Source of the DNA: a virus
Virus record (IMG/VR): IMGVR_UViG_3300030098_000499
Span: 1 to 28,690 of that record
Direction: 5' to 3' (one strand)
DNA: 28,690 bases
Part shown: positions 2,777 to 26,722 of the stretch, one piece after another
Numbering within the stretch: the stretch's first letter is position 1
How the letters are laid out: each line of letters opens with the position of its first letter
Notes under the pieces: model-generated
The model's input: the letters and a program-made list of their open reading frames with translations, nothing else
Told to the model about the DNA's origin: nothing
The model's database searches: none
Program-made: the position numbers and the translations under genes

Positions 2777-2995
2777 TTATTTATTGTATTTAGCTGCTAC
2801 TCTATTAGACGTTTGTTTATCTTTCTCCCTCAATTCTTCTATCTCTTTATATGCTTCAGTTAAAGTTCTGCGTTGAATTACATTACGTTGCTCTAAATCA
2901 TTTATTCTTTTTTTCTGACTTTTAACAACTGTTTTTAAGTGGTTAAGTTTACCTGGTGTTGGGTCTAGGTTTCTAAAAAATTCTTTTAAATCCAT
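2777..2995 (-). CDS. Small coiled-coil hypothetical protein (72 aa)
   Basis: Unrecognised. Residues about 18-62 form a long amphipathic helix with heptad-like spacing (LKTVVKSQKKRINDLEQRN, then AYKEIEELREKDK), predicting a coiled coil. The N-terminus MDLKEFFRNLDPTPGK looks like a short globular or docking segment. It is the second gene after the early promoter at 3346-3316 and is separated from the first by 31 bp holding a weak hairpin. A dimeric accessory protein is plausible; no function can be assigned. Confidence 0.55.
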   Translation of the reverse strand: MDLKEFFRNLDPTPGKLNHLKTVVKSQKKRINDLEQRNVIQRRTLTEAYKEIEELREKDKQTSNRVAAKYNK

Positions 2996-3026: not shown

Positions 3027-3287
3027 TTAATTAGTTATTGTTTTATCGTATTTTTTAGCTTCTTTATGAATATCAGTTAAGCTAATTGTATTTTTTATTA
3101 AGTTAGTGTGTAGTTCTTCTAACTCCATTAATTTATCTAACGCTTGTACCATACCTTTTTTACCAATAAGTCTTTTATGTTTTCTTTCTGCTTTTTCAAT
3201 CAATTTTTGTGTTTCATTGATTTTATTGTTATGCAGATTGCGTTCTTTTAATAACTCTTTATATTTAGATGCGTAAGTTTGTGACAT
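3027..3287 (-). CDS. First gene of early operon, coiled-coil hypothetical protein (86 aa)
   Basis: Unrecognised, Lys/Glu-rich and helical throughout: YKELLKERNLHNNKINETQK followed by further Lys-rich helix (KAERKHKRL, then LDKLMELEELHTNLIK). Coiled coil is likely from about residue 8 to 70. The ATG lies about 24 nt downstream of the transcription start predicted from the TTTG-N19-TATATTTG promoter, so this is probably the first protein made after infection. No Shine-Dalgarno is present; the sequence before the ATG is only A/T. Function unknown; first-gene position suggests a host-interaction or regulatory role, by inference. Confidence 0.6.
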   Translation of the reverse strand: MSQTYASKYKELLKERNLHNNKINETQKLIEKAERKHKRLIGKKGMVQALDKLMELEELHTNLIKNTISLTDIHKEAKKYDKTITN

Positions 3288-3315
3288 TTTTATATTTTTA
3301 ATTAATTTGATACGA

Positions 3316-3346
3316 CAAATATAGAAACATTTTCAACAACTACAAA
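3316..3346 (-). promoter_or_regulatory. Early promoter, Bacteroidota sigma-ABfr type
   Basis: Read on the minus strand, TTTG (3346-3343), 19 bases, then TATATTTG (3323-3316). This matches the known Bacteroidota primary promoter (-33 TTTG, 19-21 bases, -7 TAnnTTTG) exactly. The predicted start is near 3311, about 24 nt before the ATG at 3287. It is the only perfect match I found upstream of minus-strand genes, so it probably drives the whole early block through the contig ends. Confidence 0.8.
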
Positions 3347-20746: not shown

Positions 20747-21240
20747 TATTGAATTATGTTAGTCGTTGGTTGTGGTATATTGCACGTATCGTATGGTTGT
20801 TCTATTATGATTGGTAATTCAAATACAAACCCTGTTACTGCGTTGTCAAATCGTTCCGTAAATGGCTCAAGAAAAAAATCTTCTTCTACAAAATACCTTG
20901 CTTCTTCACCATGTGATGTGCTTGATAAATATAAACTTTCACCTGACTTAAATGTAGCAATTAAATCTGTGCAAATACTTAATGTATCTGACAATACTTC
21001 TTGTTCGTTGCTCTCATCTTCGTTTACTAAATCGCATATAAATACTTGAAAGTTAAATGTCATTCTACTTGCTTCTGCGTCAACAGAAACAAAGTTAATA
21101 TGCATAAGTGGGTACTTGTTATTCTTCTCTAAATCAAATTCGTGTACATCGCCACTTGATACCTTTTGTATTTGATAGTGATTTGTTCCCCATTGTTTCA
21201 GAGTATCTATGACATTGTTATAAGTTTTATATCTTATCAT
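20746..21240 (-). CDS. Tail terminator or neck-type structural protein
   Basis: 164 residues. Pattern: YNNVIDTLKQWGTNHYQIQK, GDVHEFDLEKNNKYPLMHIN, TFNFQVFICDLVNEDESNEQ, EVLSDTLSICTDLIATFK and PFTERFDNAVTGFVFELPII. This matches a family widespread in Bacteroidota phages encoded near tail genes, with the size and helix-strand pattern of tail terminators, which cap the tail tube. It overlaps the chaperone frameshift frame by 14 bp. Function by place and fold impression; not proven. Confidence 0.6.
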   Translation of the reverse strand: MIRYKTYNNVIDTLKQWGTNHYQIQKVSSGDVHEFDLEKNNKYPLMHINFVSVDAEASRMTFNFQVFICDLVNEDESNEQEVLSDTLSICTDLIATFKSGESLYLSSTSHGEEARYFVEEDFFLEPFTERFDNAVTGFVFELPIIIEQPYDTCNIPQPTTNIIQ

Positions 21241-21499
21241 TTTGTAGTTTTACGTTTCGTATTTCGTTTAAATCTGCTTCGTATGATAACCATGTTAAGC
21301 ACTCGTATAAAAGCAAATTAGTTATCTTGTTTAAATTAGTTATATTGCCATTACATAATCTGTGCATTATTGAAAACCAGCCCCATTTACTTGCGAATTG
21401 ATTTTCGGTAGTATCTCCTGCATTTTCGTTTCCAGATCCTTCTGTAGATTTGCCAAAAACTGCGGCAAAATAGTCAGTAGTTCGTTCCCTAAAGTCCAA
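21227..21499 (-). CDS. Tail assembly chaperone, frameshift-encoded extension (gpT-like)
   Basis: The frame has no ATG; its first codon after the T-run is TTG-GAC. It is the -1 frame relative to the upstream chaperone gene and overlaps it by 133 bp. Expected expression is by ribosomal slippage at U-UUU-UUU (21505-21499), giving a fusion of 172 + 90 = 262 residues that ends at 21227. The extension has a Cys/Trp pattern (FASKWGWFSIMHRLCNGNIT, then CLTWLSYEADLNEI) like the extensions of other Bacteroidota phages (KWGWYS...CL..L.FE). The longer form is thought to recruit tail tube subunits to the tape measure. Confidence 0.75.
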   Translation of the reverse strand: MDFRERTTDYFAAVFGKSTEGSGNENAGDTTENQFASKWGWFSIMHRLCNGNITNLNKITNLLLYECLTWLSYEADLNEIRNVKLQNDKI

Positions 21500-22014
21500 A
21501 AAAAAACTAACGCTGAATTAACGTCTTTTGCTTTCATCTTTTTAAACACTTCTGCCCTGTCCTCAAATTTATCACTATCATAAGCAGCTATTGTATAATT
21601 GTCTTTATCTTCTGCTACTATAGGCCTGTAAAGTACAGCCATTATATTGTGCATATTTTCTTCCAATCCATTTGAAACATATTGTTCAATGTCTGCGTAT
21701 TCGCCTATGGTTATTGCTTCTAAATTAGGGTGAAAGCCATAGTCTATATCATGCATCGTAATCTTATGTTTTAGTTTTCCTTCTTTTTGTACTTCTGTTG
21801 CCTTTTCTAATATAAATGCTACATCTTTAACTGTTAATTGTTCAATAAGCTTTTTAGGTATGTCTGAAATTAACCTAATGTTTTCTACTGCTTGTTGAAC
21901 GTTACTTCCTTTGTTTATAGCAATTACTTCTGCCCATTTTTCAAGTGTAAGTTCTTTCCATTCTTTAATCTTATACTTGTGCTTCTTTCCGTCTTTCTTT
22001 ATATTGACGTCCAT
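21367..22014 (-). CDS. Tail assembly chaperone (gpG-like)
   Basis: 215 residues. Begins MDVNIKKDGKKHKYKIKEWK with a LTLEKWAEVIAINK motif common in these chaperones; the middle is helical with DIEQYVSNGLEENMHNIMAV and LYRPIV, followed by GNELLTILPQFLANLQK at the end. The 9-T run lies at codons 171-173 and supports a -1 frameshift into the downstream frame. In lambda the pair gpG/gpGT loads onto the tape measure. Here the pair is 7 kb upstream of the tape measure and just after terminase. The start has TATATAC six bases upstream, in a gap with a convergent small RNA. Confidence 0.75.
   Translation of the reverse strand: MDVNIKKDGKKHKYKIKEWKELTLEKWAEVIAINKGSNVQQAVENIRLISDIPKKLIEQLTVKDVAFILEKATEVQKEGKLKHKITMHDIDYGFHPNLEAITIGEYADIEQYVSNGLEENMHNIMAVLYRPIVAEDKDNYTIAAYDSDKFEDRAEVFKKMKAKDVNSALVFFWTLGNELLTILPQFLANLQKDLETKMQEILPKINSQVNGAGFQ
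21499..21505 (-). promoter_or_regulatory. Slippery heptamer for -1 ribosomal frameshift
   Basis: The minus strand has nine T (21506-21498). In the upstream frame it reads GTT-TTT-TTT-TGG, so U-UUU-UUU at 21505-21499 fits the X-XXY-YYZ rule. Slipping back one base joins the chaperone gene to the frame ending at 21227. Confidence 0.75.
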
Positions 22015-22030
22015 AATAATGTATATATAA

Positions 22031-22061
22031 TTTGTGTATTTAGTTTAAAATCGTATATTTG
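22031..22061 (+). promoter_or_regulatory. Plus-strand Bacteroidota promoter
   Basis: TTTG (22031-22034), 19 bases, TATATTTG (22054-22061): an exact match to the Bacteroidota primary promoter, and element-for-element identical to the early promoter at 3346-3316. It points opposite to every gene. The start would be near 22066. Confidence 0.7.
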
Positions 22062-22065
22062 CTGC

Positions 22066-22127
22066 GTTTTAGGTTAGTTTGATTTTTTATAGGTTGGTTA
22101 CTACTATGTAGTAGCCTTCCTTTTTTT
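22066..22127 (+). ncRNA. Candidate small antisense RNA (~60 nt)
   Basis: A plus-strand RNA from the promoter at 22031-22061 would be stopped by the hairpin at 22096-22116 and its T run, giving about 60 nt. It contains two similar copies of AGGTT(A/G)GTT before the hairpin and holds no start codon of note. It is complementary to the leader of the chaperone gene and to the very end of the terminase large subunit gene. No family is recognised. Roles to consider: control of the late morphogenesis mRNA, or a trans-acting regulator of a host gene. Confidence 0.55.
22096..22127 (+). terminator. Intrinsic terminator on plus strand
   Basis: GGTTACTAC (22096-22104), loop TAT, GTAGTAGCC (22108-22116): nine paired positions with one mismatch, followed by TTCC and seven T (22121-22127). 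The T run lies on the plus strand only; on the minus strand the hairpin is not followed by T, so it should not stop the gene-strand transcript. Confidence 0.7.
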
Positions 22128-23439
22128 ATTGAACAAAATACCTTCCATAATTACTATCAATCTCATAAAACATTCTCATCATTATAGCGTCTGAATAGTC
22201 AGGTGATCTACCTAATATAGTTTTAACTGTGTCTTTAGAATGCATTTGTATCTTTGCGTCTTTGTCTGCGTTCTTTGAACGTACTTGTTCCAATTCCTCT
22301 ATAATACATTTTTTAATATGTATGTCGTTACAATCTATTCCTATCTGTGCTTTATTTACAAGGTCTGCTAATTTGTAATAACATTGTGTCTTTAAGTTTT
22401 GATAATTCTCTCGTTTAAGGGGTTTTGCATTGTTTTGGAAGGGTGTGCAACGTAAATAGTCTTGTGCACCGCCCCCAACTCCGTCAGAGTCTACTATAAT
22501 GTGTTTAAGGTTTACAGCATAATCTCTTTGTACTTTCCTTACTTCGTCAACCACTTCGTTTATAGATGACTTATCAATGCTTATAATCTTTTCAATATGT
22601 AGTCCGTTCCATAATACTATGACTGTTTTATCTGTACCAAATCGTGCCACATCTACACTAATATATCTTTCTCCCATTACTCCCTTTTGATTAAATAGAT
22701 TAATAATAGAGTCATAATCTATTAAGTTATCTGTTGTTGCTTCGTACTCCCAATTTCCAAATAATAGTCTTTGTTTACTTATCTCATCTAATTTTCCTAA
22801 TTGTTCTTTATAATGTGTGCCTATATATTCGTTGTCATCAACTAAACTTTGTATAAATTTTCTGTGTTCTTTTATATTCCCTTTTTTACTAGGTTTATAA
22901 AATTGAGTATATGTCCAGTTCTTTGCTGGGTTACAGGTTAGAAACAATTTAGGTTGTATATTATATAAGTCTAATTTATATCTTATTCTACTGCTTAATA
23001 TGTTCTTACACTTTTCTGTTATTTGGTTAGCTTCGTCTATGAAAGCACCTGTCAACTCAAGTGAGCCTAATGAGTCGAAGTTAGGATCTGAAGGGTAAGT
23101 AAATAAATCTTTTAATAGTATTTCACTATCATTAAAAAACGTAATTATATTAGAAGCCCCATTAAACCGATAATGTTTATCTGATTTTAAACCCCATAAT
23201 TCACACACTTCAAAGAACGTGTTTAATGTTGTCTTCTTTAAATTATCTAGTTTACTCCTGCCCATTAAGTAACGTGTCTTTGGGTATTTAATACAAGATA
23301 GTATAAGCCATGCACAGCCTATAAAAGATTTGCCACCCCCTGCTGCACCACCAAATAAAACTTCTGTTGTGTTCTTATCAAATAAGTATGCTATTGCTTG
23401 TCCTTGTGTTTTAGTAAAACTTGTGTCAATAACTTTCAC
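22126..23439 (-). CDS. terL: Terminase large subunit
   Basis: 437 residues, normal for the family. Walker A GGAAGGGKS (30-38), Walker B region LTGAFIDE (129-136, with the catalytic Glu136), then the RNase H-like nuclease part with YISVDVARFGTD (about 245), HIIVDSDGVGGG (about 310) and the late Asp motif PDYSDA (about 418). The enzyme uses ATP to drive DNA into the prohead and cuts it to length. It overlaps the small subunit gene by 14 bp. Its stop codon lies in the T run of the plus-strand terminator. The type of end cutting (pac or cos) cannot be told from this sequence. Confidence 0.92.
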   Translation of the reverse strand: MKVIDTSFTKTQGQAIAYLFDKNTTEVLFGGAAGGGKSFIGCAWLILSCIKYPKTRYLMGRSKLDNLKKTTLNTFFEVCELWGLKSDKHYRFNGASNIITFFNDSEILLKDLFTYPSDPNFDSLGSLELTGAFIDEANQITEKCKNILSSRIRYKLDLYNIQPKLFLTCNPAKNWTYTQFYKPSKKGNIKEHRKFIQSLVDDNEYIGTHYKEQLGKLDEISKQRLLFGNWEYEATTDNLIDYDSIINLFNQKGVMGERYISVDVARFGTDKTVIVLWNGLHIEKIISIDKSSINEVVDEVRKVQRDYAVNLKHIIVDSDGVGGGAQDYLRCTPFQNNAKPLKRENYQNLKTQCYYKLADLVNKAQIGIDCNDIHIKKCIIEELEQVRSKNADKDAKIQMHSKDTVKTILGRSPDYSDAIMMRMFYEIDSNYGRYFVQ

Positions 23440-25769: not shown

Positions 25770-26166
25770 ATAAGTATTTTAATGAATTATAAACTGTATG
25801 TAGGCAGCTAGGACAGTTTGTTGTTGTTTTATATCCACCACCAAAATAAGCGTTGTATATTTCTATCATCTTTGCCTTTGTTTCTACGTCTTTAGCTTTA
25901 CCGTCTTTAAAGTCTGGGTATATAGCAATTAGTTCTTGTTCTAAATGTTTCTTGCCTTCCGTTTCTAACCCCTCAATCATTGGTTCTATTTCTGTTGTAT
26001 TTTTCCAGTAACCCTTTGGGCAACTTTGTGTTGCAATTCTTGACTTAATACGCATAAAACAGCCACATATTTTGCAAGATCCTGTTAGTTTAAAGTAATA
26101 ATCACAACTTTTACATATGTTTATACGTTCTTTATATATGTCTTGTGGCACTAAAAATCTAGTCAT
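25741..26166 (-). CDS. Cys-rich zinc-binding protein (141 aa)
   Basis: Cys residues at 18, 21, 31, 34, 36 and 49 (ERINICKSCDYYFKLTGSCK, then CGCFMRIKSRIATQSCP) form a zinc-ribbon layout known from many phage proteins with the pattern CK-CGCFM.K.R....CP-G-W. A second pair lies near residues 118-121 (NCPSCLHTVYNSLKYL). The middle is helical. No function is established for the family, though late-gene transcription or DNA-binding roles have been suspected. Overlaps the sigma-like gene by 8 bp, so the two are translated together. Confidence 0.65.
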   Translation of the reverse strand: MTRFLVPQDIYKERINICKSCDYYFKLTGSCKICGCFMRIKSRIATQSCPKGYWKNTTEIEPMIEGLETEGKKHLEQELIAIYPDFKDGKAKDVETKAKMIEIYNAYFGGGYKTTTNCPSCLHTVYNSLKYLYDKITREKF

Positions 26167-26722
26167 TAATTATATTTTTTAGTTTCTTTCTTACTTTATC
26201 TATTGTTGTAAATAAACTGTTTCTGCTTATTCCTGTTTTTTTAGCCAAGCTGTCTAGTGTGTTATCTTCGTAGTAGTATAGTTTAAATAACTCCCTATCG
26301 TACCAATACATTTTGTCAAGTTCTACGTCTATCGTTTCTAGTTTTTCCCAAGTATTTGTGCTTTTTTCTTCTTCTATATTATATAAGTTTATTTTGTTTG
26401 ATACTTCGCCTGTTTCCATAATGTCATATGTTGCTCTTGATGAAGCGTCGCGGATGTTTGTGTAATACTTTTTGTATTTATAGTAATAAGGGCTGTTTTT
26501 ACTTCTAAAACATCTGCGTAATATAACTGTTGCGTATCGTATTATGCCTGTTCTACCGTCTTTTTCATAAATCTTTTTTAATGTGTCAGGATTCATTTTT
26601 AAAAAATTGAGCATAGTTTCTTGTACTGCTTCATCTATTTCATTAATGTCTTTTGTAAATCTTCTGCATATTCTTACAAAATCTTCTCTGCATTCACTTA
26701 CTAATATATATATTTTATTCAT
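26159..26722 (-). CDS. Sigma-70-like (ECF-type) transcription factor
   Basis: 187 residues. Residues about 12-75 resemble sigma region 2 (CREDFVRICRRFTKDINEID, then EAVQETMLNFLKMNPDTLKK and GIIRYATVILRRCFRSKNSP). Residues about 140-185 form a region-4 helix-turn-helix (DRELFKLYYYEDNTLDSLAK, then KTGISRNSLFTTIDKVRKKL). The combination is that of small ECF-type sigma factors and their phage relatives. It may direct host RNA polymerase to phage late promoters, since the morphogenesis block lacks a visible primary-type promoter. It begins 8 bp before the stop of the upstream gene and overlaps the zinc-ribbon gene. Region 2 is less certain than region 4. Confidence 0.6.
   Translation of the reverse strand: MNKIYILVSECREDFVRICRRFTKDINEIDEAVQETMLNFLKMNPDTLKKIYEKDGRTGIIRYATVILRRCFRSKNSPYYYKYKKYYTNIRDASSRATYDIMETGEVSNKINLYNIEEEKSTNTWEKLETIDVELDKMYWYDRELFKLYYYEDNTLDSLAKKTGISRNSLFTTIDKVRKKLKNIIND

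Follow-up and report, generated by a model that had tools for sequence, protein, structure and literature searches.

A predicted small RNA gene between terL and the tail block of uncultured Bacteroidota phages, with a 5' end that may pair with the first early gene

Results

Genes and features at the locus

The window, that is, the whole stretch of DNA analyzed, corresponds to an IMG/VR virus record that is 28,690 bases long, and nearly all of its genes lie on the minus strand. The gap between terL and the first gene of the tail block holds a set of elements that read in the opposite direction (Table 1). A promoter, a hairpin, and a run of seven Ts had been described there on the plus strand, and all three were recovered at the same positions. 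The core stem-loop reads GGTTACTACTATGTAGTAGCC, and the T-run occupies 22121-22127; its end overlaps the terL stop codon.

Table 1. Coordinates of the features discussed, as positions in the window.
Feature	Position	Strand	Remarks
Small-RNA promoter TTTG-N19-TATATTTG, Bacteroidota sigma-A type	22031..22061	+	
Predicted small RNA, ~62 nt, +1 taken as G22066	22066..22127	+	fold; TSS offset from PMC9723704
Unstructured 5' pairing region GUUUUAGGUUAGUUUGAU (predicted)	22066..22083	+	fold, pairing
Intrinsic terminator, stem-loop and T7	22091..22127	+	core 22096-22116, closed by 22091-22093/22119-22121
Late-type promoter of tail block	22015..22047	-	overlaps small-RNA promoter back to back
terL	22126..23439	-	stop codon overlaps T-run end
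First tail-block gene, function unknown	21367..22014	-	PHROG 32199 sole match
First early gene, 86 aa, function unknown, likely target	3027..3287	-	
Best predicted pairing site in window, 5' mRNA leader of first early gene, AUCAAAUUAAUUAAAAAU	3294..3311	-	
Early promoter of target gene, TTTG-N19-TATATTTG	3316..3346	-	exact string; drives early genes from 3346 downward
72-aa gene MDLKEFF..., alternative or second target	2777..2995	-	
Sigma-factor-like phage protein	26159..26722	-	phrog_1740, E 2.6e-7; below Pfam cut-offs

We took G22066 as the predicted start of the RNA because the -7 box of Flavobacterium psychrophilum sits at -12 to -5 (PMC9723704). When folded, 22066-22127 gave a 5' end with 25 free nucleotides and, behind it, a hairpin (-16.1 kcal/mol, z -3.4) that three extra pairs shut straight onto the T-run. 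The sigma-A promoter of the TAnnTTTG type upstream and the intrinsic terminator downstream are features expected of a Bacteroidota-type intergenic small RNA gene. An Rfam search of the window returned 0 matches above the gathering score and placed the RNA in no Rfam family.

The exact string TTTG-N19-TATATTTG occurs twice in the window, against 0.02 copies expected from shuffled sequences. The second copy is the early promoter on the minus strand, so the only two exact copies in the window are the promoter of the small RNA and that of its best predicted target. The looser form TANNTTTG, with N19 fixed, finds the same two sites and no others (0.48 expected; 13 of 100 shuffles reach two), and in the loosest form, where the spacer may range over 17-21, two sites are found against 2.35 expected. 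Within the window, the exact form alone is thus clearly non-random, and it is conservation that settles the matter.

Conservation of the module

Relatives were fetched via terL, via the next gene (the tail block), and via DNA motifs, which gave 169 non-redundant IMG/VR gaps. A TAnnTTTG-type box is kept upstream of the same gene in 115 of these, with changes falling mostly at degenerate positions (variants: TATATTTG 71, TATCTTTG 13, TATGTTTG 12, TACATTTG 6, TAACTTTG 5, and the rest rare). A hairpin before a T-run is present in 101 of the 115 box-bearing gaps, whereas the same lenient rule finds one in 34% of shuffles. The stem sequences differ among relatives yet still pair, and the 101 hairpins have 53 different stem beginnings. 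In many relatives, a G followed by a U-rich stretch is conserved at the same offset, and the small RNA usually abuts the terL stop codon. At least 105 distinct phages conserve promoter and terminator together. The preliminary description had called for such a search in relatives, and its outcome strongly supports the proposal that the feature is the gene for a discrete small RNA on the plus strand, equipped with a promoter and a terminator to itself.

In relatives that do not carry the module, the gap between terL and the tail block has shrunk to ~33 nt, in some with a remnant of the T-run. The relatives L171, L188, L192, L217, L218, L228, and L230 have no module but keep, ahead of the terL stop, a remnant of the kind ACGATTTTTTTTA, and such remnants suggest loss by deletion. 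On a tree of the proteins of 155 relatives, the state of the module changes at least 17 times, by gain or loss; the module is therefore dispensable. We found no cultured phage that carries it among those inspected: Flavobacterium phage 11b has a short gap with the portal gene after terL, the terminase gene of Nonlabens phage P12024S overlaps the next gene, and neither isolate has room for the module.

The surroundings of the module vary. In L086-L094, the space that separates terL from the small RNA holds a short gene on the plus strand, which has a TAnnTTTG promoter of its own; these genes differ from one another (e.g., L087, L088, L093), and the gap resembles a site where accessory genes are inserted. 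Nine relatives (L109, L117, L118, L120, L123, L124, L125, L128, and L134) keep the small RNA and the tail-block gene, while the large terminase upstream is unmatched by the terL of the window.

The overlapping late-type promoter

Directly before the tail-block gene, the family carries the minus-strand motif TAAACTAAA-N-TTCTATTATATANT-ATG, including relatives without the module. This motif looks like a phage late promoter that would give nearly leaderless mRNAs. In most relatives, it overlaps the plus-strand promoter back to back. A similar motif recurs ~2-4 kb upstream, before a ParB-like or small-terminase operon. In these same phages, neither a box nor a hairpin is present on the plus strand at this second copy; the small RNA is therefore a separate element and no by-product of the late promoter.

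In the window, the late-type motif has diverged to a TATATAC version at 22015-22047, which is perhaps also present before 12589 and 9368. The recurring minus-strand motif is also found just upstream of 25116 (-), and was seen in L100, L036, L049, and others. The sigma-like protein encoded at 26159-26722 is a candidate reader of the late-type promoter, and a candidate for a role in late transcription.

Pairing with the first early gene

The 5' ends of the RNAs of 18 phages were scored against all gene starts, and strong matches fell on an early gene family that we call EATNK. A permutation of own against swapped RNAs over all genes, which preceded the early-gene hypothesis, gave no significant result (p 0.14 and 0.11). 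When limited to EATNK in six phages, some of which had served to form the hypothesis, the comparison gave p 1/720. New phages bearing EATNK were then fetched; 16 of them, none of which had contributed to the idea, made up the independent set. In these, the pairing of each RNA with the start of its own early gene summed to -201 kcal/mol, against -141 (sd 10) for swapped RNAs. None of 100,000 permutations was as good, although the permutations ignore shared ancestry and the set is small.

We also shifted the test stretch along the target. The z values were -0.2 at -90, -0.1 at -70, -4.9 at -50, -5.8 at -37, -6.2 at -25, -4.0 at -10, -2.4 at +10, and 0.1 at +30. The pairing signal is confined to the translation start and peaks on the start codon. 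In the same test, the complement of the RNA gave no signal, and the reversed RNA gave a weak one (z -2.0).

In phage G060, TTCATTTTATTAAGTT pairs with AACTTAATAAAATGAA over 16 nt, perfectly and across the start codon; G042 forms 15 pairs, one of them G-U, over the start codon. The G038 type matches GTTTTTGTTTT to AAAACAAAAAC, and its sister G037 has changed on both sides with one mismatch left. Two EATNK phages, G061 and G036, showed no match between RNA and target. A second target family, YxxNK, occurs in too few phages for a test of its own.

An unbiased scan covered every gene start of each fully fetched genome and compared the phage's own RNA with the RNAs of other clades; pairing energies were computed without mRNA structure. 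The gene just downstream of the intergenic TAnnTTTG box ranked first among ~45 starts in eight of 16 genomes, and in a further three it came second. When the test stretch was made slightly shorter, this promoter-proximal early gene ranked first in nine of 16, and it was not the top match in seven of 16. Foreign RNAs in the same scan put the early gene first in 13 of 534 cases (p 3e-11), and the enrichment persisted when the two genomes that had suggested the idea were left out (p 1.5e-8). Partial complementarity to a distant target, kept through sequence change as it is here, is what is expected of a trans-acting base-pairing sRNA. The genes that lead the early operon are often non-homologous between phages, and the target would seem to be a position, the first early gene, instead of a particular gene. 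The suggestion that the RNA might act in trans is strongly supported, and the evidence favors the phage's own first early gene over a host mRNA as the target.

Four phages of the window's clade have four different proteins as first early gene: MSQTY in the window (rank 1), MDLKEFF in G001 (rank 2), MDKMNLKEL in G002 (rank 1), and MANMSYCRF in G003 (rank 1). In the window, RNA positions 22066-22083 form 17 pairs, several of them G-U, with mRNA positions 3311-3294 (-11.8 to -13.6 kcal/mol). Measured against foreign small RNAs, the start of the 3027-3287 gene is at the top of 48 gene starts (z -2.2), and one of 31 foreign RNAs pairs equally well. This duplex is modest and one of the weaker cases. 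A genome-wide search for perfect trans complements of the window's RNA gave nothing outstanding, and none above those of shuffled RNAs. In the sister phage G001, TAAAAAACAAACTAAC-ATG matches GTTAGTTTGATTTTTTA with one bulge, and none of 31 foreign RNAs pairs as well. The window's own MDLKEFF gene was considered as the main target and set aside; its raw energy is lower (-16.4), but it ranks below the promoter-proximal gene.

Discussion

Proposed mechanism

The comparisons among relatives support the conserved promoter and terminator and the target-tracking pairing; from here we infer transcription of the small RNA, translational repression, its timing, and a coupling to the late promoter. The feature is probably the gene for a trans-acting phage small RNA whose free 5' end pairs with the mRNA of the first early gene and stops ribosomes from loading. 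A host-type sigma-A promoter would give a transcript of ~62 nt that ends at the intrinsic terminator, and the free 5' end would base-pair with the leader or the start codon of the first early gene's mRNA. Pairing would then keep ribosomes from loading and limit early protein synthesis as infection proceeds. Blocking of ribosomes is the simplest reading of pairing over a leader or a start codon, given that the phylum lacks Shine-Dalgarno signals. As RNA and target share a promoter type, the RNA could be a dose limiter that grows with genome copies; the overlap of its promoter with the late one could let it mark the change from early to late expression. The back-to-back arrangement may, in this way, couple early shut-down to late activation. 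A wider proposal, which we offer tentatively and with some doubt, is an RNA-based early-to-late switch in a large group of uncultured Bacteroidota phages, in which an sRNA with its promoter embedded in the late promoter silences whichever gene leads the early operon and has its 5' end re-tuned at each replacement.

Alternative explanations

Antisense control of the late block had been proposed for this RNA. It would pair with read-through mRNA from terL into the tail genes and lead to RNase III cutting or lower late expression, as OOP of lambda does with cII. By position, the RNA is perfectly complementary to the mRNA between terL and the tail block, and its usual place against the terL stop codon fits as well. 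We nevertheless consider such a role unlikely: the 5' end of the RNA lies ~50 nt upstream of the start codon of the late gene, and neither this start, nor any other start codon of the late block, nor the likely late promoter is covered by it. Cis-antisense RNAs such as OOP and sar lie opposite the gene that they regulate and cover its start or end, whereas this RNA reaches no further than the terL-tail gap and the stop codon of terL. The plus-strand gene of L086-L094 parts it from terL, in L109 and others the terminase upstream is a different protein, and perfect pairing in cis requires no tracking of a distant gene, yet tracking is what we see. The RNA could also be incidental to its promoter, with host polymerase occluding the late promoter early in infection and the terminator merely stopping transcription antisense to terL. 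The overlap of the two promoters in most relatives and the sigma-like protein encoded in the window agree with this; however, in L021, L064, and L068, the plus-strand box has moved off the late motif while RNA and terminator are kept, and occlusion does not predict that the RNA 5' end should match an early gene, which makes it quite improbable.

The match to an early gene could itself reflect DNA, if the shared sequence were an operator for a phage regulator, placed in inverse orientation at both promoters without any RNA pairing. Both sites do adjoin sigma-A-type promoters in many phages. But the match is centered on the start codon, it occurs also where the target start has no -7 box nearby (G042, G058, G065), and several matches use G-U pairs, so that an operator has hardly any likelihood. 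PreS and similar phage sRNAs target host genes (PMC12197685), and the RNA could likewise work mainly on host mRNAs; given that its 5' end tracks a phage gene, this is very doubtful.

Comparison with known small RNAs

Most known phage sRNAs come from individual cultured phages of Proteobacteria. P22 sar is encoded at the locus of its target, antisense to it, and lambda OOP is read against neighboring genes, as is the RNA predicted here. The preliminary description knew of no counterpart, which was too strong: OOP, sar, VpdS, and PreS are all phage small RNAs, the first two antisense to phage genes and the other two acting in trans with Hfq (PMC12197685). Like the predicted RNA, sar is a short phage RNA (68-69 nt) that pairs with a phage mRNA, where it blocks translation initiation, and OOP is of ~77 nt with its own promoter (PMC12197685). 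However, sar serves lysogeny, whereas the predicted RNA has its likely target elsewhere in the genome, with imperfect pairing that tracks different genes; OOP is cis-antisense to cII and works via RNase III, whereas the predicted RNA has no such overlap with its likely target. VpdS (phage VP882) and PreS (lambda) are trans-acting and phage-encoded, and VpdS also alters phage mRNAs (PMC12197685); both depend on Hfq and belong to Vibrio and E. coli, in contrast to an RNA of Bacteroidota phages. Bacteroides has no obvious Hfq homologue (PMC7366714). GibS of Bacteroides thetaiotaomicron is likewise a Bacteroidota sRNA; its 5' end, also unstructured, forms pairs that span start codons, and a block of ribosome loading has been proposed for it in Bacteroides (PMC7366714). 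GibS is, however, encoded by the host, ~145 nt long, and directed at metabolic targets, and the likeness is one of features, with no sequence relation expected.

The main text of the review of phage sRNAs (PMC12197685) nowhere uses the term "Bacteroid", and none of OOP, sar, VpdS, and PreS has the first early gene as its target or is described there for a phage of Bacteroidota. No description of such an RNA was found in the literature, our coverage of which is incomplete; as far as we found, it would be the first report of an sRNA that acts in trans from a phage of Bacteroidota. The predicted sRNA occurs in 105 or more distinct uncultured phages, and co-evolution by itself suffices to read off its target. 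If the reading is true, this sRNA follows a position, and the RNA-target pairs of these phages are natural compensatory pairs.

Host and neighboring genes

A scan of host genomes gave distant relatives only (Lewinella sp. and one Bacteroidetes MAG), and no host could therefore be assigned. The gene at the head of the tail block had been described as a tail chaperone. Its sole match is PHROG 32199, a family of unknown function. An ORF with a TTG start (21227-21499, minus strand) overlaps the end of this gene in another frame and might be an extension reached by frameshifting, of the kind that tail assembly chaperones have.
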